Source of the DNA: a virus
Length of the DNA: 25,212 bases
IMG/VR virus record: IMGVR_UViG_3300031772_000261
Span: 1-25,212 of that record
Strand: one strand, 5' to 3'
Each line of letters opens with the position of its first letter. Within the stretch, counting starts at the first letter, position 1. Of this stretch, positions 2,148-19,837 are shown in pieces. The translations under genes and the position numbers were made by a program. The notes below the pieces were generated by a model. That model searched no databases and was not told the origin of the DNA. It saw only the letters and a program-made list of their open reading frames with translations.

Positions 2148-2306
2148 TTAGTTCTCCTTTGTTCTGTGGGGTGCTTACCGGCTAAATTGCCGTAGCTAAT
2201 TTAACCATAGTTTGGATGAGGGCACCACATTATTTTTTCGTTTTAGATTAGACATAGATATCCAATTAGTTGTAGTGTGAGCACACTTTTCCATGAAGAG
2301 GATGCC
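2148..2306. promoter_or_regulatory. divergent intergenic control region
   Basis: This AT-rich stretch separates the leftward small-gene operon (first ATG at 2147) from the rightward glycosyltransferase/structural genes (first ATG at 2307). A divergent arrangement implies promoters in both directions. I could not pick out convincing -35/-10 pairs on either strand, so exact promoter positions are not called. The only clear structure is the imperfect dyad described separately. No small gene or RNA is visible here. Confidence 0.45.
2180..2206. promoter_or_regulatory. operator-like imperfect inverted repeat
   Basis: GGCTAAATT (2180-2188) and AATTTAACC (2198-2206) form a dyad matching at 8 of 9 positions, separated by 9 bases. 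The half-site centres are 18 bp apart, nearly two helical turns, as expected for a dimeric repressor binding one face of DNA. It lies 33-59 bases upstream of the leftward operon's first start codon. No repressor gene is identified in this window, so the binding protein is unknown. Confidence 0.4.
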
Positions 2307-3158
2307 ATGAAATTATCGATTGTTATTTCGACGCTGGACCGAACAATACAGTTGGATAGAACCTTGTTCTCCTTGTGCAAGTGGCAGAATTACGAGCCTG
2401 CGGATGTGGAATTAGTTGTGGTGGTCGATAGGACAAAAGTCTGGGGTGATTTTGGATGGGTAATGAGAAATTACAGACGGTACTTCTACAAAATTACGTT
2501 GATAGAGATTAACAGTGATCGAATGTCACAAAAGGGAGTAACGGGTAATCCTAGCCTCGGCATCAATATAGCTGTAAAAGCGGCTGAGAACGAAATTATC
2601 TTAAAGACTGATGCGGAGTGTACGCCGATCACGGAAACTGTCAGCGAATCCATCAAACTATTCGATGAGAACAAGCTCTGGTTTTTCTGCGTAAGAATGC
2701 TGACAGAAAGAGAGACAGAGCAAATGGGAGAAGGGTTTGATTCCATCCACCCTGACGCCCTTTACAAGAAGAAGCTGACTCAGATAGATGGCTTGTGGTA
2801 TATCACGGAAAGACAAAGATACCCTTATTGGTTCGGCGCTGTTTTCAGTCGGCAGCGGTTCATGGAGATTGGAGGGTTAGACGAAGAGTTTATGAAGGGA
2901 TTCGCCGGTGAGGACGATGAGTGGGCTGAGAGGATGGCGCGGAATGGAGTTCGGTGGGATTGGAGTGCCACGCTGAAGATACTGCATCAGTACCACGGGG
3001 ATTGGAGCCAAAGATGGATTCACACAGAGCCCCACTTTACGAATATCAGACGATTGCAGTGGAGTAGAGACAACGCTGTGATGAGAGCTAATGAAGGATT
3101 AGATTGGGGATCAGACAAGTACATTATCAGGAAGGAAACCTTCAATGCGCATCGTTAA
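2307..3158 (+). CDS. family 2-like glycosyltransferase (GT-A fold)
   Basis: A 283-residue protein that probably transfers a sugar from a nucleotide-sugar donor in the cytoplasm; donor and acceptor cannot be told. It opens with the GT-A strand MKLSIVISTLDRT. The metal-binding DxD position reads KTDAE (residues 100-104), and a catalytic-base-type motif GEDDEWAERM lies at 200-209, followed by HQYHGD. The ATG at 2307 is preferred over an upstream in-frame GTG (2277) because GAAGAGGA sits just upstream of it. Its 3' end overlaps the radical SAM gene by 14 bases, implying co-expression. Glycosyltransferases at the edge of a phage head operon often decorate virion or host-surface molecules; that is inference here. 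Confidence 0.8.
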   Translation: MKLSIVISTLDRTIQLDRTLFSLCKWQNYEPADVELVVVVDRTKVWGDFGWVMRNYRRYFYKITLIEINSDRMSQKGVTGNPSLGINIAVKAAENEIILKTDAECTPITETVSESIKLFDENKLWFFCVRMLTERETEQMGEGFDSIHPDALYKKKLTQIDGLWYITERQRYPYWFGAVFSRQRFMEIGGLDEEFMKGFAGEDDEWAERMARNGVRWDWSATLKILHQYHGDWSQRWIHTEPHFTNIRRLQWSRDNAVMRANEGLDWGSDKYIIRKETFNAHR

Positions 3159-4218
3159 TCGGAAGCTGAAAGAAGTACCACAGTTTACCAGAACGAACCG
3201 ACATCAACGAGCCCGATTGGAACATGGGACATTAAGGAAGTGGGAGAACTTCATCAGGTCAAAGATTGAAAAGAAGTTGAGACGAATTGAACTTACCAGT
3301 CTGCCACATTTCATGGTGATCGATCCGTGCAATTATTGTAATCTAAGATGCCCGTTGTGTCCTACCGGGATCGGAAAGCTAGGACAGCTACAAGCTCTAC
3401 TTTCTTTCGAGCATTTTCATCAGTATTTCGAGACGCTGGCGGACTACCTCTTTGAGATATTTTTGTTCAATTGGGGTGAGTCATTATTGAACAAGCAGGT
3501 GTTCAGAATGATTGAATACTCTCAGAGTAGAAATGTTGGAACTAATTTAAGTTCCAACTTCTCAGATGTAAGCAGTAAGGATTTGGATAATATTTTAGAT
3601 TCAGGATTAGAGTATCTTGTTGTATCTCTTGATGGCACTAGTCCGGAAACTTACAGTAAGTATCGAGTACGGGGCGTGTATGAAAATGTCTATGGGAACA
3701 TGCGAGAGTTAATTGATAGACGCAATCGCCGTCATCTAAAACTTCCTGTAATCGAGTGGCAAATGATTATAATGCGGCATAACGAACATGAGATTCCTGA
3801 AGCAGAACGATTAGCTAGGTGGGCGGGAGTAGATTTACTGCGGTTTATTCCTGTAGCTTTGCAGGTCATGGGTGAAGATAGAGAGCCATTGGCTAAGGAG
3901 TGGTTTCCTACTAATTTTGATGGACGAAAACGATCTACAGATGGAGTAGAGCAACAGTTTGGTCAGGCAGAGAAGCCAGGTCCTTGTTTTTATCTTTATG
4001 ACACATTGACTGTAAATCCTACTGGCGCTGTTACTCCTTGCTGTGTGATACATGGCCAAGAGAATGAGTTTGGGCAACTTCCAGTTGATGACATTCGTAA
4101 ATTCTGGAACAATCCTAAGTATCAGAGCGGGCGTTCTCTCTTCTCCAAGCGCAATCCAGATGTGAAGGTTTCAGTAGTATGTGATGGTTGTGACATCTTC
4201 AAGAAGGTGAAGAAATGA
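3145..4218 (+). CDS. radical SAM protein with C-terminal SPASM-like domain
   Basis: A 357-residue protein. The radical SAM cluster motif is CNLRCPLC (Cys65, Cys69, Cys72; C-x3-C-x2-C), which binds a 4Fe-4S cluster that cleaves S-adenosylmethionine. Cys62 lies just before it. The C-terminal part (from about residue 282) has PCFYLYDTL, TGAVTPCCV and a final VCDGCDIF, the cysteine pattern of a SPASM/twitch auxiliary-cluster domain. Such enzymes typically modify peptides or sugars; the substrate is unknown and no small precursor peptide is obvious next to it. It overlaps the glycosyltransferase gene by 14 bases and has an AGGAAGG site upstream. Its 3' end is duplicated downstream at 4329-4553. 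Confidence 0.88.
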   Translation: MRIVNRKLKEVPQFTRTNRHQRARLEHGTLRKWENFIRSKIEKKLRRIELTSLPHFMVIDPCNYCNLRCPLCPTGIGKLGQLQALLSFEHFHQYFETLADYLFEIFLFNWGESLLNKQVFRMIEYSQSRNVGTNLSSNFSDVSSKDLDNILDSGLEYLVVSLDGTSPETYSKYRVRGVYENVYGNMRELIDRRNRRHLKLPVIEWQMIIMRHNEHEIPEAERLARWAGVDLLRFIPVALQVMGEDREPLAKEWFPTNFDGRKRSTDGVEQQFGQAEKPGPCFYLYDTLTVNPTGAVTPCCVIHGQENEFGQLPVDDIRKFWNNPKYQSGRSLFSKRNPDVKVSVVCDGCDIFKKVKK

Positions 4219-4553: not shown

Positions 4554-4595
4554 TATTCCCAGCGGATTCAGCTTACCAAAGAGGCCGACTTGGCG

Positions 4596-6410
4596 ATGAT
4601 TCAAACACTCCAATCCCGACTCACCAATTACGAAAAAAGAGAGACACTAGAAGAAGTCGCCCGCATGTGGAAGACGGGGATTTCTGGCGATGCCACATCT
4701 GGACCCACTTCTGAATATACGGGGTCTCCTTGGGTCTATAGCTGCATCAACGCCATCGCTAGAAACGTAGCGGGCGTCCCGTTGAGATTCACGGAGGGAG
4801 TAGAACGAGAAAAAGACTTAGACAAGGATCATTGGATTAGCAAACTGTTCAGACGGCCGAACATGCTGATGTCTGGAAGCGAGTTGGTTACGGCGACTGA
4901 AATCTTTTTGCAATTGGGCGGAAACGCTTTATGGGTTCCAGTTCCCGGCAAAGTTGAAAAGGGACAATTGACGGTTGAGGAATTATACGTCTTTGGTAAG
5001 AAATCCATCAAGCCCATTGTTAAGAAAAACCTGATGGTAGGTTGGGAAGTGAAGTGGGGCGGCGAAATAGAGAAATTCGATATAGCTGAAGTCCTGCACT
5101 TTCGCTATTTCAATCCGGAAGACCCCATTATGGGCATCGGACCTTTGCAAGCTGCTCAGGGAGCTTTCATTCAAGACTGGTGGAGCAACAAGTACAATGA
5201 AGCGTTCTTCAAAAACTTTGCGGAGCCCGGAGTCGTAATCACTTTCCCCGGTGATTACAATGATAAGATAATGAAGTCTAGCCGTGAGTCTTGGGACCAA
5301 CGGCATCAAGGGTTCAGCAAGATGAAGAAAACAGCGGTCTTGTGGGGAGGGGCGACACTAACAGAGTTAGGCGCCTCCAAGCGAGACATGCAATACGTTG
5401 AAGGAAAAAAGTGGGGGAGAGAAGAGACGTGCGCGGTTTTCAGAGTACCCCCCGTGGAAATCATGAACGTAGACCGGGTAAGCAGCACGGTCGAAAGCCA
5501 GAAAGCCCAACGCATCCTTTTTGGAGAAGAAGTCATAAGTCCTGAACTGAAGATGCTTGAAGATCGGTTGACCATCTTTCTTCAAATGTTCAGAGTTCAA
5601 AATGTTGAGGCTTGGTATGACACTAGCGAAGTCAGTATCCTTCAAGAAAGTATGGGAGCCAAGATCGCGCAAGCGAAAGATTTGCTCGGTTTAACTTTAC
5701 CTCTTAATGCGATACTGAAGCGATTAGACTTGGGTTTCAAGCCAGTTCCTTGGGGTGACGTAGCGTGGGTTCCGAACACGCTGGTAGCTCTTGGAACTGT
5801 GGTGGACGAAGATAATCCAGATGATGAGGAAGTAAAGCCCAAGTCCAAACCCAAAGCCAAGGCAAAAGATGAGGAAGAAGGGTTAAAAACTGCTCCTCCT
5901 AAAATGACAGGGAAGTTGAAGAAGGTTTTGTTCGGGTTGAGAAACGAAATCCTTAACTACAAAGATGGCTTATCTCAACCGAAATGGAACAGAGCTGAAG
6001 TCCGCTTGCGAAATGTAGTAGCCCAACCGGATTTACTGATAGCGAAAATCAAGTCATGGAGTGAGAGTGCTTCCAAGGAAGAAATCAAACTCGCTTTTAA
6101 TGCTCTTAGCCACGGCGCATCTACTCTCATGCCGACGCTCGCTCTGACTGGTTCGACTGCTAGAGCGAGCAAACTCCCTAAAGATTACAAGAAACTCATC
6201 TTGAAGTACGAAGACAAACTGGAAAGACGCTTGCGCTCTTACTACCGGCGATTGGGAGACAACTATGTCTCGGCTTTCCTGACTCAAAACAAAGAGGCGT
6301 CGGTTCTAAAATTTAACTGGCAAGAGGCGGATGACGAATTGGTAACGATCACTGAAGATGTTTTGATAAGCGCCCTTCTATCATTTGGCAAGTGTTCAAC
6401 GCTGGTTTAA
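4596..6410 (+). CDS. HK97-type portal protein with MuF-like C-terminal extension
   Basis: A 604-residue portal protein, which forms the dodecameric DNA entry ring at one head vertex. Portal-family features include SPWVYSCINAIARNVAGVPL near residue 43, a central HFRYFNPEDPIMGIGPLQAA and RVPPVEIMNV in the second half of the core. The HK97-like core ends near residue 400, followed by a charged linker (PKSKPKAKAKDEEEG) and a roughly 190-residue helical domain ending ITEDVLISALLSFGK. That last domain resembles the N-terminal helical part of MuF proteins, which in some phages are fused to the portal. ATG 4596 is preferred over TTG 4590 because AAGAGG (4579-4584) is then well spaced. Confidence 0.92.
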   Translation: MIQTLQSRLTNYEKRETLEEVARMWKTGISGDATSGPTSEYTGSPWVYSCINAIARNVAGVPLRFTEGVEREKDLDKDHWISKLFRRPNMLMSGSELVTATEIFLQLGGNALWVPVPGKVEKGQLTVEELYVFGKKSIKPIVKKNLMVGWEVKWGGEIEKFDIAEVLHFRYFNPEDPIMGIGPLQAAQGAFIQDWWSNKYNEAFFKNFAEPGVVITFPGDYNDKIMKSSRESWDQRHQGFSKMKKTAVLWGGATLTELGASKRDMQYVEGKKWGREETCAVFRVPPVEIMNVDRVSSTVESQKAQRILFGEEVISPELKMLEDRLTIFLQMFRVQNVEAWYDTSEVSILQESMGAKIAQAKDLLGLTLPLNAILKRLDLGFKPVPWGDVAWVPNTLVALGTVVDEDNPDDEEVKPKSKPKAKAKDEEEGLKTAPPKMTGKLKKVLFGLRNEILNYKDGLSQPKWNRAEVRLRNVVAQPDLLIAKIKSWSESASKEEIKLAFNALSHGASTLMPTLALTGSTARASKLPKDYKKLILKYEDKLERRLRSYYRRLGDNYVSAFLTQNKEASVLKFNWQEADDELVTITEDVLISALLSFGKCSTLV

Positions 6411-9653: not shown

Positions 9654-10130
9654 ATGAGATCTGGCTATAACTCAACGGCGGAATGCTACATTATTGAGAA
9701 CACGCATAACAAGCATCATTGCTATGTTCCGCCGGAAGTTTGGGGAATTGATGCGTATACCGTTTGTACAGTTTGCCGATTGAAGAATTCAAGACTCTTC
9801 GTGGACGCTGGTATTACATTGTCAAAGCAGACATCTGCCGTGGTCATTAAGTTCGTTCCGGCGGCCCGCTTTATTTTTCCGGGTCCGGTAATAGGGAAAA
9901 AGACAACGGACAGGCTTTGTACGTCTTGTGGTACTACTCAAATCTGGCGCCGACTTTGGGATAACGGCGAACGGATTTGTGGAACTTGCAGACAAAATTC
10001 AGCGCCGCGTATTTGCAGATTTTGCGGGAAAGAAAACGTCGCGAAGTGTGAGTGGCGCACAAAGGATAAGATGTGTTCTGATAATGATTGTTGGAACGCT
10101 TTTGTCAGTGAAATGAAACTCGGAATTTAA
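9654..10130 (+). CDS. multi-zinc-finger protein with GATA-like finger
   Basis: A 158-residue protein with several cysteine pairs: CTVC (38-41), CTSC (89-92) with CGTC (109-112), CRFC (121-124), and Cys132/Cys141/Cys146. Residues 89-112 read C-x2-C-x16-C-x2-C with CTSCGTTQIWRR and NGERICGTC, strongly recalling a GATA-type zinc finger, whose hallmark is CxxCGTTxxxxWRR then GxxxCNxC. The second set (121-146) resembles a zinc ribbon. It probably binds nucleic acid in the cytoplasm. No SD is apparent; the start follows the partial CRISPR-repeat-like element by 10 bases. No nuclease residues are recognised. Other phage or eukaryote-like zinc-finger families remain possible. Confidence 0.65.
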   Translation: MRSGYNSTAECYIIENTHNKHHCYVPPEVWGIDAYTVCTVCRLKNSRLFVDAGITLSKQTSAVVIKFVPAARFIFPGPVIGKKTTDRLCTSCGTTQIWRRLWDNGERICGTCRQNSAPRICRFCGKENVAKCEWRTKDKMCSDNDCWNAFVSEMKLGI

Positions 10131-10249: not shown

Positions 10250-10561
10250 ATGATGAATGATCGAGAGTTGGTAGTACGAGTAATTGACATTCAGTCAAGG
10301 CGTCTCGTAGTACCAACCGCGCACATTCAGGACGTCATTCTAACGGTTAGTAGAGTGTTGGCCGGATTGGATTCCACAGATGCTATCGAAACATTGGGAG
10401 TTTTGCTGTATCATGGTAGAATCGCGAATGAACGATTGGGCAATCCAACGCAAGAACACAAATTCCGTGAACCTATTCCTTTGGGGCGCACAATGGAAGA
10501 GTTGAGACTAGAAGAGTACCAAAGGTTTGAGGAACGAAATGCCGACGAAACCCAAAATTAG
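10250..10561 (+). CDS. hypothetical protein preceding MuF gene
   Basis: A 103-residue soluble protein starting MMNDRELVVRVIDIQSRRLV, with GAGG before the start. The first half alternates strand and helix (VPTAHIQDVILTVSRVLAGL); the C-terminal 30 residues are strongly charged and helical (MEELRLEEYQRFEERNADE). No family is recognised. Its 3' end overlaps the MuF start by 23 bases, so translation is probably coupled to the minor head protein, suggesting it belongs to the head module rather than the accessory insert. Confidence 0.65.
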   Translation: MMNDRELVVRVIDIQSRRLVVPTAHIQDVILTVSRVLAGLDSTDAIETLGVLLYHGRIANERLGNPTQEHKFREPIPLGRTMEELRLEEYQRFEERNADETQN

Positions 10562-11999
10562 CGTTTGCGTAGATCTGAATATGAAAAACCCGGAAGTCCA
10601 ACAAGCCCTTGAATCCCGTCTTACTCAGATAAAGGGTATCAACGAGACATTGCGGGGGCGCTTACGGGAACAACTGAGGCGCGGATTCGCATTGGGTGAG
10701 ACAACGGATCAGATCGCAGAACGAATTCGCGGTGAATTCAGAACGCAATTGTACCGAGCAAGAACGATTGCACGCACTGAGATTAATGCGGCGGCTAATG
10801 ACTCTCGCAGCCTTCAAGCCAAAAAGACGTTTGGTAACAAATTCGATAAAGAGTGGATTGATTCCAACGATTTGTTGGTGCGTCCATCTCATAATATTGG
10901 TGGTGAGCGTGTTAGCGCGGATAAGAGGTATTCTAATGGAATGTGGAGGCCCCATGATCCATCTGCGCCTGCCAACGAATTAGTCAATTGTTATCTTCCG
11001 GGTACTAAAGTGTCTGGAAGATTTATTACTGGATCAAAAGCGTGGTACTCTGGAGAAGTTTGTGTAATTGAGACGCGGATGGGTGAAAGGCTTACCGTTA
11101 CCATCAATCATCCCATACTTACCGATAAAGGATGGGTTCCCGCTCACCAACTTCGAGAAGGCAATTATTTGCTTACTCACAGCAATAAGATCAGGGACTG
11201 TTCTTTGCTTAATGAAAATGATAAGAACGGCCCAGTCGCGATTGAGGATGTATTTAATGCGCTGAGGACTGATGGACGATCGCGGTTTAAGAAAGTTTCC
11301 GCTTTGGATTTCCACGGCGATGGATCTAGTATTAAGAGTCAAATCGAGATTGTAGATACCACAAGGGTACTGTTGCTGCGTAGACATTCCGGATCTTCTA
11401 AGCAGAGAAGTAATCGCTCCTTCGTACCTACCGATGTGGGTCAATCCTTCATGGCGGCTTTTAGCTCTGCGCAATTTGGTAAGCGTGGAGTCAGTGTGTC
11501 CACGTCGTGCGAGCCAAGCGTTTCTCATTTGTCTAACAACCAATTTGCGGTTATTCTTGATGCGCGACCACTTAACAAATTCTGCTTCGGATTGGCTGCG
11601 CAGTGGGACACTCCTTTTAAGGAAAGCGGTAAGTGTAGCGCGGTGTACATTAAACCGCTTGGACAATTTGAACACGCTAACTCCAGACAAATAGAGTTGG
11701 ATGATTTCTTGAGCATTAATCGGTTTGAATCTAATGCACGCTTCAGAACGATTTCGCAAAGTGGCGCGTCTTTTGAGGAAGCGCAAAAAAGTAACGTAAG
11801 AGCAACTCAACTCTTTACTGAGTTGCAGAGCGCTAGCGCCGGACAGGTAAAGCCTGACGATATTATCAGGATTGGGCGGTTGAAATTTGATGGTCATGTT
11901 TACGATCTCCAAACTGATACCGGTTACATGCTAGCAAATAATGTGCTTAGCAGCAATTGTCGCTGTACAGAAGTCTACCACCCAAAGGACGAAGATTAG
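10539..11999 (+). CDS. MuF-like minor head protein interrupted by an intein
   Basis: The 486-codon frame encodes a phage Mu gpF/SPP1 gp7-type minor head protein, which acts inside the head near the portal. Family features are ALGETTDQIAERIRGEF, then RARTIARTEINAAANDSR (about residues 73-90), and the C-terminal hallmark N-CRC. That last motif is split: residues 151-473 are an intein, after which CRCTEVYHP resumes. Splicing would give a 163-residue protein, shorter than typical MuF proteins; the missing N-terminal helices appear to be on the portal C-terminus 4 kb upstream. ATG 10539 has GAGG six bases before it; an upstream TTG (10527) lacks this. The opposite strand of the intein carries another gene. 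Confidence 0.88.
   Translation: MPTKPKISVCVDLNMKNPEVQQALESRLTQIKGINETLRGRLREQLRRGFALGETTDQIAERIRGEFRTQLYRARTIARTEINAAANDSRSLQAKKTFGNKFDKEWIDSNDLLVRPSHNIGGERVSADKRYSNGMWRPHDPSAPANELVNCYLPGTKVSGRFITGSKAWYSGEVCVIETRMGERLTVTINHPILTDKGWVPAHQLREGNYLLTHSNKIRDCSLLNENDKNGPVAIEDVFNALRTDGRSRFKKVSALDFHGDGSSIKSQIEIVDTTRVLLLRRHSGSSKQRSNRSFVPTDVGQSFMAAFSSAQFGKRGVSVSTSCEPSVSHLSNNQFAVILDARPLNKFCFGLAAQWDTPFKESGKCSAVYIKPLGQFEHANSRQIELDDFLSINRFESNARFRTISQSGASFEEAQKSNVRATQLFTELQSASAGQVKPDDIIRIGRLKFDGHVYDLQTDTGYMLANNVLSSNCRCTEVYHPKDED
10989..11957 (+). mobile_element. intein (Hint domain) inserted before MuF CRC motif
   Basis: This is a 323-residue intein. The N-terminal block starts at Cys1 (CYLPGTKV). Block B is TVTINHPILT, with the TxxH motif at Thr38/His41. 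The C-terminal blocks are HVYDLQTDTGYMLANN and VLSSN, ending in Asn323. The +1 extein residue is Cys. The usual penultimate histidine is a serine (Ser322), seen in some active inteins but worth noting. No LAGLIDADG or HNH nuclease motif is visible on this strand. The middle region includes IEDVFNAL and LDFHGDGSS. It has no TTA, CTA or TCA codons across 11037-11897, which keeps the opposite strand open as a second coding frame. Confidence 0.88.
11034..11897 (-). CDS. antisense Vsr/PD-(D/E)XK-like homing endonuclease inside the intein
   Basis: A 287-residue product read from the strand opposite the intein. Residues 9-53 and 61-105 are two similar helix-turn-helix repeats (IVRLYLSGASALQLSKEL and IIQLYLSGVSVFKLSKRF). 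The C-terminal half has a nuclease core: Glu159 (GRYEGAITSLL), Asp185 (GIYNLDL), Glu196-x-Gln198 (SIAVEIQ), Arg213 (QRIKYIL) and DWAVLIIFI, the outline of Vsr-like (EDxHD) or PD-(D/E)XK homing endonucleases. The histidine often found after the IAVEI strand is not evident (SGNFLKP). ATG 11897 has GGAG about nine bases upstream; a longer TTG start (11912) is possible. It probably cleaves intein-free MuF genes to spread the intein. Confidence 0.75.
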   Translation of the reverse strand: MTIKFQPPNPDNIVRLYLSGASALQLSKELSCSYVTFLRFLKRRATLRNRSEACIRFKPINAQEIIQLYLSGVSVFKLSKRFNVHRATLTAFLKRSVPLRSQSEAEFVKWSRIKNNRKLVVRQMRNAWLARRGHTDSTLTKLRRAKSRHEGLTHIGRYEGAITSLLRRSGMSTQQQYPCGIYNLDLTLNTRSIAVEIQSGNFLKPRSSISPQRIKYILNRDWAVLIIFIKQRTVPDLIAVSKQIIAFSKLVSGNPSFIGKYGMIDGNGKPFTHPRLNYTNFSRVPRF

Positions 12000-12016
12000 C
12001 GAATATAGGAGACGTC

Positions 12017-13282
12017 ATGAAAACGAAAGTCAAAGCATCATTGGGAGTTCAAATCAGATCCGTAGATAAGGATTCGCGAGTTGTTCAATTCACCGCTTCA
12101 GATGAAACTGTGGATCGCTACGGCACTGTCATTACCGTCAAGGGATGGGATCTTGCCAACTATCGCAAGAACCCTGTTTTCTTGTTCGGCCATGACTACC
12201 GGAGCCCGTGGTCAGTGATGGGGCGAACTGTCGATGTAAAGAAGAACGTGGAAGAAGGGCGGTTGGAAATGGACGTTATGTTCATGCCAGAAGAAATGAG
12301 CGCCGTCGCTGATTTTGTTTTTAAGCTGTACTCCAGCAAACCTCCATTTTTGAATTCCGTGAGTGTGGGTTTTCTGCCGATTAAATGGGAAGAAGTGAAA
12401 GACGAAGATCAAGAGGGCTTGAAGCAATCAGGTTCCAAGCGCAAAGCGTGGTTGCGCTACCTCCAGCAAGAGCTTTTGGAGCTGAGTGCAGTTACCGTGC
12501 CTGCGAATCCCGGAGCCAACAAAAAAGATGTGGCGGGCGTCATGCGAAGTATAATCGGAACGACCCGTGATTTCGATGCGGTTGCTCTCATGGCAGCGCA
12601 GACTGTGTTGAATGACGAAGACGAGTACGAGGCTCTTACGGATAAGATTGGCAATTGGACTGAAAAGAACGGGCTGATTGTACCCTGTGAAGGCGATTGC
12701 TGTTCCAAGATCGTTTGCATCGAGGACTTCGCTAAACAGAATGGGTTGAAGTGCTTCTCGTTCCCATCTGCTGCTGTAGAGCCCTCTGTTGAACGCGATG
12801 CCGATTCTGAACAGGACGAAGATGTTGTCGAAATGTCCAAGTTTGCTAAAGCGTTTAAGAACTTGGAAGTTCTACAGAATGCCGGAGCGGTTCTCAATCG
12901 CAAGAACAAGAAGTTGCTACAGCAGGCCAGCACTTGCGTCGCGAGCGTACTTGACTCATCTGAAATGATGAAAGAAGATGTTTCAGAACTCAAAGAGGTT
13001 GATGCGGTTGAGATTCGTTTGCAGCAAGTTGAAGAGAAACAAGACCAGACGCTTGAGATCTTGAGAGATATTTACGAGCACCTCATCAAAGGCCACGATG
13101 CTGAAGAAGATGATGATGACGATGAACCCGGATTGAACGATGAGGATGCGCCAGAAGACAAAGAGAGTTTGAAGGCGTTAGACAATTTGTTGACAAAAGT
13201 TTCTCCGCCAAAAACGGAAGAAGCTGATCTTGAGGCTGACGGACGCTTGAGTGCTGCACTGGCAGGACTGACAAGCAAGTAG
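12017..13282 (+). CDS. HK97-type prohead protease with long acidic C-terminal region
   Basis: A 421-residue protein. Residues 1-170 match the phage prohead serine protease family: VVQFTASDETVDRYGTVIT, catalytic His59 in FLFGHDY, the serine strand NSVSVGF (Ser114/Ser116), and LLELSAVTVPANPGA. It cleaves capsid and scaffold proteins during head maturation. Residues 170-421 are helical and acidic, including DAEEDDDDDEPGLND; no separate scaffold gene is seen, so this part probably serves as a fused scaffold. There is also a small Cys segment (CEGDCCSKIVC) near residue 227. ATG 12017 follows TAGGAGA. It lies directly between MuF and the major capsid gene, as usual. Confidence 0.9.
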   Translation: MKTKVKASLGVQIRSVDKDSRVVQFTASDETVDRYGTVITVKGWDLANYRKNPVFLFGHDYRSPWSVMGRTVDVKKNVEEGRLEMDVMFMPEEMSAVADFVFKLYSSKPPFLNSVSVGFLPIKWEEVKDEDQEGLKQSGSKRKAWLRYLQQELLELSAVTVPANPGANKKDVAGVMRSIIGTTRDFDAVALMAAQTVLNDEDEYEALTDKIGNWTEKNGLIVPCEGDCCSKIVCIEDFAKQNGLKCFSFPSAAVEPSVERDADSEQDEDVVEMSKFAKAFKNLEVLQNAGAVLNRKNKKLLQQASTCVASVLDSSEMMKEDVSELKEVDAVEIRLQQVEEKQDQTLEILRDIYEHLIKGHDAEEDDDDDEPGLNDEDAPEDKESLKALDNLLTKVSPPKTEEADLEADGRLSAALAGLTSK

Positions 13283-13335: not shown

Positions 13336-14478
13336 ATGCACATTACAGAAGAGAAGTTAGATCAGATCTGTAAAGCCTTGGGGATTGTTACTGATCTCCA
13401 GAAGGCTCAAGAACTGCTCCAGAATCAGTACAACGCCATTCACGCGGAATTCGGAGCAGCTCCGGCTCGCGGCGTAAGAGTGGGACGTTGGTCGGGCGCT
13501 GACTCTGATAAGGATTCTGACGATTTGAAACGTCAGTTTCTTTATTGGGTTCGGGCTATCAGTGCGCGTCGAGCGTTGCCGGATACACCCGCAGAAATCC
13601 GGGCGATTATTGAAGCCGGAACAGATGCGCAGGGAGGGGTTCTCGTTCCTGAGATTTTCATCCCAGAGCTTCTGCGTGTAATCGAAGCATCCGCCGTCAT
13701 GCGTGGATTGGTTCGTGTTATCCCAATGACAACGGACACCAGCAATCTGCCAAGTTTGGTCAGCAACATGACGGTTTACTGGCCAGATGAATTGCAGATC
13801 ATCACTCAAAGCGATCCGGTCTTCGGAAAGGTGACACTCAGTGTTAAGACGATGGCGGCCTTGACGAGTGCATCTATTCAAGTTGCAGAAGATGCGGCGT
13901 TGCCTTTGGCTGATTTGTTGGTGACTCTGTTCGGAGAAGCGCTGGCTACTGAAGAGGATAAGCAGCTCCTTTCAGCTAGTGCAGCTCCGTTCAGCGGCGT
14001 CTTGTTTGCGTCTAACGTAAACGTAGTGACGATGGCATCGGGCAAAACGACTTTCAGTAGCATGGATTTCAATGACTTGTTGGACGTTGTTGACACCCTG
14101 ACCACAGCCGCTTCTGCTGGAGCCCGCTTCTTTGCTCACCGCAACATCATCACGAACATCCGAAAGATTCGTGATTTGAACCATCAGTACATCTGGAACC
14201 CTTCGACCGTGAACGGAGAACCAGCCACGATCTACGGGTATCCTTACAGCGCATCAGATGTTATGCCTGCAAACGCGGCAACTAATGTTAGCAAAGCCTT
14301 CCTGGCTTTTGGAAATCCGAAGTACATGTTTTTGGGAGATCGGCGTGACTTCCGCGTTGAAGTCAGCGATCACGTTGGATTCAAGAACAACGAGCGCTTC
14401 TGGAAGGTAACTAACAGAATTGCCGTTGCAATGGGAGTTCCTTCTGCGTTGGTTCGGATTCGGACTGCTGCTTCCTAA
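13336..14478 (+). CDS. HK97-fold major capsid protein
   Basis: A 380-residue major capsid protein forming the head shell. About the first 100 residues (a helical start with EEKLDQICKALGIV, then charged DSDKDSDDLKRQFLYWV) probably correspond to a delta-like/N-arm region. The HK97 fold then follows: AGTDAQGGVLVPEIF, SVKTMAALTSASIQVAEDAA, LFGEALATEEDKQLL, and the P-domain/C-terminal part NPKYMFLGDRRDFRVEVSDH ending in ALVRIRTAAS. AAAGGAAAAAA upstream is the ribosome binding site. It follows the protease by 53 bases and is followed by a good terminator, consistent with high, separately controlled expression. Confidence 0.93.
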   Translation: MHITEEKLDQICKALGIVTDLQKAQELLQNQYNAIHAEFGAAPARGVRVGRWSGADSDKDSDDLKRQFLYWVRAISARRALPDTPAEIRAIIEAGTDAQGGVLVPEIFIPELLRVIEASAVMRGLVRVIPMTTDTSNLPSLVSNMTVYWPDELQIITQSDPVFGKVTLSVKTMAALTSASIQVAEDAALPLADLLVTLFGEALATEEDKQLLSASAAPFSGVLFASNVNVVTMASGKTTFSSMDFNDLLDVVDTLTTAASAGARFFAHRNIITNIRKIRDLNHQYIWNPSTVNGEPATIYGYPYSASDVMPANAATNVSKAFLAFGNPKYMFLGDRRDFRVEVSDHVGFKNNERFWKVTNRIAVAMGVPSALVRIRTAAS

Positions 14479-18829: not shown

Positions 18830-19837
18830 ATGAGTATTCAAAGACCCACAAATTTCTTTTGGGCATTCGCTCAGAAGAAACAGGTTGACATCTTCACCGC
18901 TATCGCCGCCGCTTCGCTCAATAAGAGTCTCCCTTATCGAGAGTACACCAACGCTATGCTGGAGAAATCCATTTCGTCAGATAGGCTTTACTTCGGTAAA
19001 GGACATGATTTCGCATCGAGAGTGGATCGCACTGGCCATCAGTTCCGGTTTGGGCGGACATTCGACGCAACGTCTGAATCTTTGGCGTGGGCTCTATCTC
19101 TGCTTATGGGAAAGGTCACCACAACGGGAGCCGGTCCTATCTATCAACATGTAGTTGAGTATGAGAGCCCTCTGATTATAAAAGAGTGCTTGTACACCAC
19201 GATCATTGAGAAGGCGGGTTCTGAGTACCAGAACATACTCAGCGGCGTTTTCTTGGAGTCCGTGAATCTTAGCGCAGAAGGGAAAGAGAACCTGACGCTT
19301 GCACTAACGGCATCTGGCAGACAGCAAACCACGAATGCTACCACAATGCCATCTATCACGAAATCGGTTGCGTTCAGAAGCAACCACGCGACATTCACAT
19401 TCGGAGCGTCTGGTACTGAAACGGCTATTTCTGAAAGTGTTCTTCGATGGAATCTTGCGTTGGCCAGTAATCCAGATGTGCGATGGATGCCGGGTCAAAC
19501 AAGTGGAGAGGAGCATTTGATTCGCTACGCTTTGACAGGAGCTCAAACCATCAGCGGCTCTATCAGCTTGTTCTTGGACTCTACGTTGCGCGCTGCGTTC
19601 CTGAACCACACTCAATGCGGTCTTACCATTCTTTGCAAAGGTGTCTCCCATGTTGGACATGAGTTGAAGATCGAGATCCCCGCGTTTCAAATCTCCGCAG
19701 AAGCGCACGCGGTTAGCGGCCAGACCTCGGAATTGACTTTGACGTTCAACGAAGATTCAGTTATTAAGGACGACGGCGTGACTGGAAGCCCTATCAAGAT
19801 TACGCTCAAGAATGAGATCGTCAGTTTGCTTGGGTAA
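18830..19837 (+). CDS. major tail (tube) protein
   Basis: A 335-residue protein with AGGAGG before ATG 18830. It is rich in alternating beta strands and small/polar residues (GHQFRFGRTFDATSESLAWA, IYQHVVEYESPLIIKE, FLESVNLSAEGKENLTLALT, RYALTGAQTISGSISL), consistent with a tail tube protein that polymerises into hexameric rings. The C-terminal half repeats a similar strand pattern, as in two-domain tube proteins. It precedes the assembly chaperone and tape measure in the normal order. Confidence 0.82.
   Translation: MSIQRPTNFFWAFAQKKQVDIFTAIAAASLNKSLPYREYTNAMLEKSISSDRLYFGKGHDFASRVDRTGHQFRFGRTFDATSESLAWALSLLMGKVTTTGAGPIYQHVVEYESPLIIKECLYTTIIEKAGSEYQNILSGVFLESVNLSAEGKENLTLALTASGRQQTTNATTMPSITKSVAFRSNHATFTFGASGTETAISESVLRWNLALASNPDVRWMPGQTSGEEHLIRYALTGAQTISGSISLFLDSTLRAAFLNHTQCGLTILCKGVSHVGHELKIEIPAFQISAEAHAVSGQTSELTLTFNEDSVIKDDGVTGSPIKITLKNEIVSLLG

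Follow-up and report, generated by a model that had tools for sequence, protein, structure and literature searches.

A large class of phage inteins that appears to encode its homing endonuclease codon for codon on the opposite strand

The gene of a MuF-like minor capsid protein, located in the head module of a 25-kb virus record (the window, which is the whole analysed stretch of 25,212 nucleotides), contains an intein that is, with high probability, a mobile element whose homing endonuclease is encoded by a complete gene of its own on the antisense strand, with codons in register with those of the intein. With hardly less confidence, we assign this element to a large class of phage inteins that would encode their homing endonuclease by a codon-for-codon antisense overlap, where splicing domain and nuclease, two unrelated functional proteins, originate from the two strands of one DNA and where the predicted catalytic VAVE motif of the nuclease and a separately selected FHGD motif of the intein occupy the same codons. 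At the level of comparative sequence analysis, our results establish the coding of two proteins in register that are both under selection, the kinship of the antisense protein to nucleases, a selected initiation signal and the existence of alleles with and without the element. They support the interpretation of a previous sequence-only reading of this DNA, which had proposed that the intein would be mobilised by a nuclease encoded on its complementary strand.

Two open frames in a phage head gene

The sense frame of the MuF gene (Table 1) matches the Pfam families Phage_Mu_F (8.8e-8) and Intein_splicing (9.3e-7). In line with the sequence-only reading, it harbors a continuous 323-residue intein with an open frame and the expected splicing motifs, which extends from Cys1 at position 10989 via TVTINHPILT and HVYDLQTDTG to Asn323 and is followed by Cys+1 at position 11958, with the penultimate residue being Ser instead of His. 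Among 62 intein sequences, Cys1, T38, N40-H41-P42, the HV..L pattern, Asn323 and Cys+1 are conserved in at least 90%, and 57 of the 62 sense homologs match Intein_splicing. The structure model displays a Hint fold, for which Foldseek matched the mini-inteins Ssp DnaB and Mtu RecA and other inteins with probabilities of up to 1.00, and Foldseek alone listed no match with E <0.001 for either the sense or the antisense model. The sense strand thus encodes an intein that, judging from its conserved splicing residues and its fold, would excise itself from the protein. The linker connecting its confidently modelled parts, which faces the helix-turn-helix repeats and the connector of the antisense protein, did not match any nuclease in profile searches, and the in-frame endonuclease domain of canonical mobile inteins is absent from the class represented by the window.

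Since other phage homing nucleases reside in introns, we have considered that the insert might be removed as RNA by a self-splicing intron. The sense frame, however, is open and bears an intein fold, and a search of positions 10400-12200 against Rfam matched no family at E up to 1. We have rejected this explanation, to which we ascribe a negligible likelihood.

Table 1. Coordinates of features in the window, with the strand where assigned.
Feature	Position	Strand	Basis or remark
Portal gene	4590-6410		head module
MuF gene (sense open reading frame)	10527-11999	+	open through N-extein, 323-codon intein and C-extein
MuF-like minor capsid protein, N-extein	10527-10988	+	Pfam Phage_Mu_F E=5e-8 for this stretch alone
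Intein, 323 residues, Cys1 to Asn323	10989-11957	+	splicing residues, Pfam, structure model
N-terminal splicing half, residues 1-68	10989-11192	+	AlphaFold pLDDT ~95
Block B, TVTINHPILT	11094-11123	+	within N-terminal splicing half
Second confident segment, residues 83-125	11235-11363	+	pLDDT ~94; FHGD at 11310-11321
Sense linker, residues 130-258, predicted disordered	11376-11762	+	pLDDT mostly 30-50
C-terminal splicing half, residues 285-323	11841-11957	+	pLDDT 90-98
Block F, HVYDL	11895-11909	+	within C-terminal splicing half
C-extein (CRCTEVYHPKDED) and stop	11958-11999	+	intein insertion before CxC motif
Putative antisense homing endonuclease gene, 287 codons and stop	11034-11897	-	exact codon register with intein
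Shine-Dalgarno sequence GGAG	11907-11910	-	9 bases ahead of antisense ATG
Helix-turn-helix 1, nuclease residues 10-43	11769-11870	-	model helices; HTH profile matches
Helix-turn-helix 2, nuclease residues 62-96	11610-11714	-	Pfam HTH_23 3.8e-5; model helices
Predicted Vsr-like PD-(D/E)XK nuclease core, residues 153-266	11100-11441	-	sequence profiles 3r3p, 3hrl; structural Z
Glu159, predicted catalytic	11421-11423	-	nearly invariant
Asp185, predicted catalytic	11343-11345	-	invariant in 102 sequences
Glu196, predicted catalytic	11310-11312	-	invariant in 102 sequences; codon is that of sense Phe108 of FHGD
Protease-like protein	11957-13282		head module
Major capsid protein	13336-14478		head module
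Tail tube protein	18830-19837		head module

Upstream of the portal gene, the window contains a glycosyltransferase (Glyco_transf_7C, 1.6e-5) adjoining a radical SAM/SPASM protein (8e-9) at positions 2277-4218 (+), which is an unusual pair beside a phage head module. A 158-residue frame on the 5' side of the MuF gene (9654-10130, +) carries several CxxC pairs and did not match any Pfam or PHROG family.

On the opposite strand of the intein, the 287-residue frame and the ribosome binding site described in the sequence-only reading were both recovered, with the frame being open from its ATG. The codon register is exact, with the codons of both strands matching one to one as reverse complements, and within the whole intein the only antisense stops are that of the nuclease itself at 11034 and one at 11931 that precedes its start. 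Antisense stops in this phase face the sense codons TTA, CTA and TCA for Leu and Ser, all of which have synonyms, so that one DNA can serve both proteins. With 26 Leu and 37 Ser codons in the intein, about 10.8 antisense stops would be expected from the codon usage of the window (the probability of finding none being 7e-6), and none of 5000 synonymous recodings of the intein kept the antisense frame open. The antisense frame is real and its openness far exceeds what would be expected by chance.

The start of the nuclease is located inside block F of the intein, where the sense sequence HVY[DN]L corresponds to the antisense sequence E[VI][VI][NH]-Met read backwards. Its Shine-Dalgarno sequence is complementary to CTC, the codon of the Leu in block F, plus the base that follows. 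This Leu is encoded by CTC in 86 of 101 loci, compared to about 22 expected, and if restricted to loci with enough background Leu codons and based on the usage of each gene, CTC is found in 85 cases compared to 21.8 expected (z 16.7). The codon bias indicates that the translation-initiation signal of the antisense nuclease is under selection. A scan of the minus strand near the antisense start did not identify any sigma-70-like promoter.

Relationship of the antisense protein to homing nucleases

By itself, the antisense protein of the window matches HTH_23 (Table 1) and a Cbp1-like helix-turn-helix family (9e-8) and, only weakly, a restriction-nuclease family. Searches with a profile of 23 nuclease homologs detected I-Bth0305I, a homing endonuclease of a mobile intron (3r3p, E=1.7e-7), and the Vsr-like protein 3hrl (5e-5). 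These database scans were seeded with sub-alignments, as the full alignment (A1) was too diverse for use as seed. The Pfam family MTES_1575 REase is matched by 66 of 102 nuclease homologs, with a best value of 2e-11, and a homing-endonuclease model of PADLOC matches one relative (2e-5). The profile comparison suggested in the sequence-only reading has thus led to nuclease and homing-endonuclease families.

The same assignment is obtained from structure prediction. The AlphaFold model of the nuclease, calculated from 102 sequences, has a pLDDT of 89.8, with 225 of its 287 residues at values of 90 or above. Its core superimposes on Vsr (1cw0) with a Z-score of 9.9 (114 residues aligned, 3.0 Å), on I-Bth0305I (3r3p) with a Z-score of 9.6 (92 residues aligned, 2.7 Å) and on 3hrl with a Z-score of 9.8. 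Since Foldseek by itself returned weak E-values for the nuclease model, the assignment of the fold is derived from the second-look aligner in combination with sequence profiles. Among the 102 homologs, N183, D185 and E196 are invariant, and E159 and R213 are nearly so. Three of the core residues proposed in the sequence-only reading, Glu159, Asp185 and Glu196, are thus among the most conserved of the family, whereas Gln198 is not conserved. Sequence profiles and structure models together indicate that the antisense protein combines tandem helix-turn-helix repeats with a Vsr/PD-(D/E)XK nuclease of the homing type. The predicted kinship with EDxHD homing endonucleases in the sense of I-Bth0305I concerns the fold and not membership of that family, with the conserved residues being E159, Y182-N-x-D185, A-V-E196 and R213 in the proteins described here.

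Recurrence and selection on both strands

In tblastn searches, the antisense protein was detected in 80 phage records, 42 of them with at least 80% coverage (best E 8e-24), where it mostly lies opposite to genes whose annotation reads head morphogenesis or minor head protein. The nuclease was not annotated in those annotated records that we inspected and that contain an intact sense gene. Sampling from the nuclease side provided 147 homologous loci on viral and bacterial genome contigs, whose titles include Actinobacteria, Chloroflexi, Firmicutes and Gammaproteobacteria. Both frames are open in the same register in 146 of them, and the exception (L056) contains one indel that disrupts sense and antisense frames alike, whereas the other two opposite-strand phases nearly always show many stops. 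Collapsing nuclease proteins that are more than 97% identical, among these loci and the annotated phages, leaves 131 loci. Antisense stops are found 7 times in 44,588 codons of the overlap compared to 1,033 times in 54,092 codons upstream. The antisense frame, whose openness in related inteins had been proposed as a check in the sequence-only reading, is thus kept in inteins of many phages. Sampling from the sense side with two search patterns yielded 80 loci, and in all 80 the nuclease is found antisense and in register, never on the sense strand, although this sample is not fully independent because one of the two patterns (DFHG) faces a nuclease motif. A group of Salmonella phages that contain the sense intein and were mostly missing from the antisense matches did not turn out to be an exception, since the antisense frame is intact in the three that were checked.

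Several loci deviate from this organization. In L028, L071, L080, L094, L100, L157 and L158, the nuclease contains one stop, whereas the sense intein is open, as would be expected at a stage of the homing cycle where the nuclease decays while the intein must still splice, or as a consequence of sequencing errors. In Rhodococcus phage REQ3 (L021 1384-2007, +), the nuclease has lost its helix-turn-helix half but kept the core, and the intein is shorter, which perhaps also represents a decaying stage.

The signature of double coding is manifested in the distribution of substitutions. In 18 pairs of related loci, the ratio of differences at first to those at third sense codon positions is 0.49 on the upstream side of the overlap and 0.41 on its downstream side, with values of 0.92, 1.61, 1.84 and 1.33 for the consecutive quarters of the overlap itself. 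For the quantification of constraint, substitutions were classified by their effect, divided by opportunity and expressed relative to doubly silent changes. In the exteins, antisense-changing substitutions occur at a rate of 1.20, compared to 0.12 for sense-changing substitutions and 0.12 for those changing both, which is the pattern of a gene without antisense coding. In the region of the linker, the relation is reversed, with a rate of 0.19 (95% interval 0.15-0.24) for changes that affect only the antisense protein, 0.66 (0.54-0.83) for those that affect only the sense protein and 0.08 for changes in both. The N-terminal third of the intein shows full double constraint, with rates of 0.36, 0.39 and 0.06, respectively. 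The overlapping-gene comparison foreseen in the sequence-only reading thus reveals purifying selection on both frames. Its further claim that the two proteins are forced to co-evolve base by base holds for the N-terminal third and the FHGD/VAVE site, but not for the linker, where the sense protein is weakly constrained and predicted to be disordered, so that the sense strand there mainly just stays open.

These data bear on the concern that the antisense frame might be a chance open frame or the mere shadow of a conserved sense protein. The register does mirror some similarity, and 1000 synonymous recodings of the sense intein still score 66.5 ± 14.3 on the nuclease profile. Their maximum, however, is 113.7, and the real nuclease, with a score of 234.5, is located about 12 standard deviations above their mean. 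Conversely, the real sense intein scores 268.5, compared to 145.9 ± 13.1 after recodings that are synonymous for the nuclease. As the former recodings lose the nuclease and the latter much of the intein, neither frame follows from the other. A shadow would equally be at odds with the concentration of substitutions at the antisense wobble position, the contrasting antisense rates of linker and exteins, the modelled disorder of the sense linker, the independent matches to nuclease structures and a free-standing homolog with many stops on its opposite strand (described below). The comparison of rates, and also the recoding tests, refute this explanation, the probability of which we consider to be vanishingly small.

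Both proteins also interlock at the predicted active site of the nuclease, where V-A-V-E196 faces the sense residues F-H-G-D on the same codons. For antisense Ala194 and Val195, the nuclease permits four codons each. Still, the sense residue opposite to this motif is Gly in 98 of 100 cases (42.7 expected), His in 89 of 95 (19.7 expected) and Asp in 67 of 69 (28.2 expected), whereas at the control sites E159, N183 and D185 the sense residues are found at expectation. We have thus rejected the possibility that the conservation of FHGD merely mirrors that of the nuclease, and conclude that the same codons are under selection for both FHGD and the active site of the nuclease. In the window and in its homologs, the independently selected FHGD is part of the second confident segment of the sense model, outside of the classical splicing blocks.

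These constraints also pertain to a scenario where the nuclease is real while the sense intein has ceased to splice and persists as an open passenger. The weak constraint and predicted disorder of the linker would fit such a scenario. It is opposed by the conservation of the splicing residues, by the sense constraint in the N-terminal third and by the His, Gly and Asp of FHGD, which are held far beyond the need of the nuclease. Moreover, a MuF protein with an unspliced insert of 323 residues would be unlikely to work. We thus regard a loss of splicing as very improbable and retain the interpretation of a splicing intein with a nuclease on its opposite strand.

Mobility and relation to known systems

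The distribution of the element suggests that it moves. In the phages Snoke and KMB36, whose exteins are 92.4% identical, the inteins occupy two different extein positions, 720 and 786, and each phage has an empty site where the other carries its intein. Sequence differences cluster at both sites. In the Gordonia phages Vivi2, Angelicage and Keitabear, with exteins that are 94-97% identical, Keitabear contains a different intein (72% identical) at the same site as the other two. Empty alleles and horizontal spread, which distinguish mobile inteins, are reflected in the reciprocal empty sites of Snoke and KMB36 and in the same-site swap of the Gordonia phages. The extein is a MuF protein in 62 of 98 cases and a portal, minor capsid 2 or VG15 protein in others, and in Rctr197k the host gene is that of a dCMP deaminase, where the second Cys of the PCxxC motif marks the insertion site. 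A free-standing homolog of the nuclease occurs in three Acinetobacter phages (L020 455-1348, +; L174 2827-3720, +). This homolog is convergent with an intein-free MuF gene, overlaps with its end by a few bases and is faced by 12, 12 and 24 stops on the complementary strand. The respective MuF gene is shared by 78 phages, of which 3 carry the free-standing nuclease, and two inspected relatives are without it. The free-standing homolog, the differing sites in similar exteins and the same-site swap all support mobility.

Two loci are worth describing. In L017 (616-1968, -), an intein of this type resides in a dCMP deaminase gene that is annotated as head morphogenesis protein in its record, a label that appears to follow the intein instead of the extein. 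A portal-MuF fusion gene (L002 2016-6038, +) apparently contains two inteins, a LAGLIDADG-like one upstream and one with an antisense nuclease downstream.

We propose that translation of the sense mRNA would yield a MuF protein with an intein that splices itself out. A transcript of the opposite strand, whose coding capacity is reflected in the observed selection, would be translated from the Shine-Dalgarno sequence and ATG inside block F to produce the two-HTH, Vsr-like nuclease. The enzyme would then cleave alleles that lack the intein, at the insertion site or close to it, ahead of the part of the MuF gene that codes for the CxC motif. In cells co-infected by an intein-bearing phage, repair of the break would use the genome of this phage as template, by which intein and nuclease would be copied jointly. 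A plausible benefit of this arrangement would be the uncoupling of nuclease expression from that of a late, strongly expressed head gene.

Alternatively, a genuine antisense nuclease might serve a purpose other than homing, such as the exclusion of competing phages or the regulation of late gene expression. Phage homing nucleases can have secondary roles, and conservation in many phages would also fit a useful function. We nevertheless consider such a role improbable, since the nuclease is located wholly within an intein and is related to a homing endonuclease, since its distribution is characterized by different sites, same-site swaps and sporadic presence, and since PADLOC did not assign the protein of the window to any defence system. 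Homing and exclusion are also not mutually exclusive, as the cutting of intein-free relatives would itself produce exclusion.

The proposed homing by an antisense nuclease would define a new genetic architecture for selfish mobile elements. With more than 100 divergent loci, it provides an exceptionally clear example from nature of two proteins fully encoded antisense to each other in exact register, where selection can be measured on both frames. Several questions of long standing become testable, namely whether opposite strands can stably encode two unrelated folds, as the Rodin-Ohno idea envisages for early coding, how expression of a homing nuclease is achieved in opposition to a late gene with strong transcription and why an endonuclease seems to be missing from some phage inteins. 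It also exposes a blind spot of annotation.

The antisense-nuclease intein is real and recurs at well over 100 diverse phage loci. In the open-licence literature, we did not find any description of a nuclease encoded antisense within an intein, in agreement with the sequence-only reading, which knew of no such arrangement, and the element is to our knowledge undescribed. The MuF intein of Aaphi23 has an entry in the intein registry, which may serve as a lead. Canonical mobile inteins, whose LAGLIDADG or HNH domain is in frame, share with the elements described here a Hint domain interrupted by a linker region with the homing function and an insertion at conserved motifs of important genes. Unlike in these, the sense linker here contains no nuclease, and a separate gene on the opposite strand covers nearly the whole intein including splicing blocks. 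EDxHD/Vsr-like homing endonucleases, such as I-Bth0305I (3r3p), resemble the antisense protein in the predicted catalytic fold, as judged from profiles and structure, and in the combination of a DNA-binding module with a Vsr-like core. A family of these enzymes associated with fractured genes and split inteins was reportedly described by Dassa and colleagues in 2009. We know of EDxHD/Vsr-like homing endonucleases that are intron-encoded or free-standing and of none that share their DNA with a second protein.

Two systems come close in one respect each. In insertions of the ShiLan type, a hidden out-of-frame HNH endonuclease was described in a phage methylase (Arsenault et al., 2025, PMC11855218). 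As in our case, the homing nuclease occupies an alternative frame of an insertion that is open in the frame of the host gene. In contrast, the nuclease is of the HNH type, a splicing domain was not detected and the host protein is predicted to keep the in-frame insertion; the terms antisense and opposite strand are absent from that report (PMC11855218). Antisense homing endonuclease genes that are expressed and active, such as I-DsqI, are known from group I introns of nuclear rDNA (PMC9548176). Like the phage elements, they place the homing endonuclease antisense to a mobile element, there an intron. The gene, however, is an insertion into a peripheral segment of the intron RNA, the intron belongs to an rRNA gene and the sense strand encodes no protein, so that double protein coding is absent (PMC9548176).
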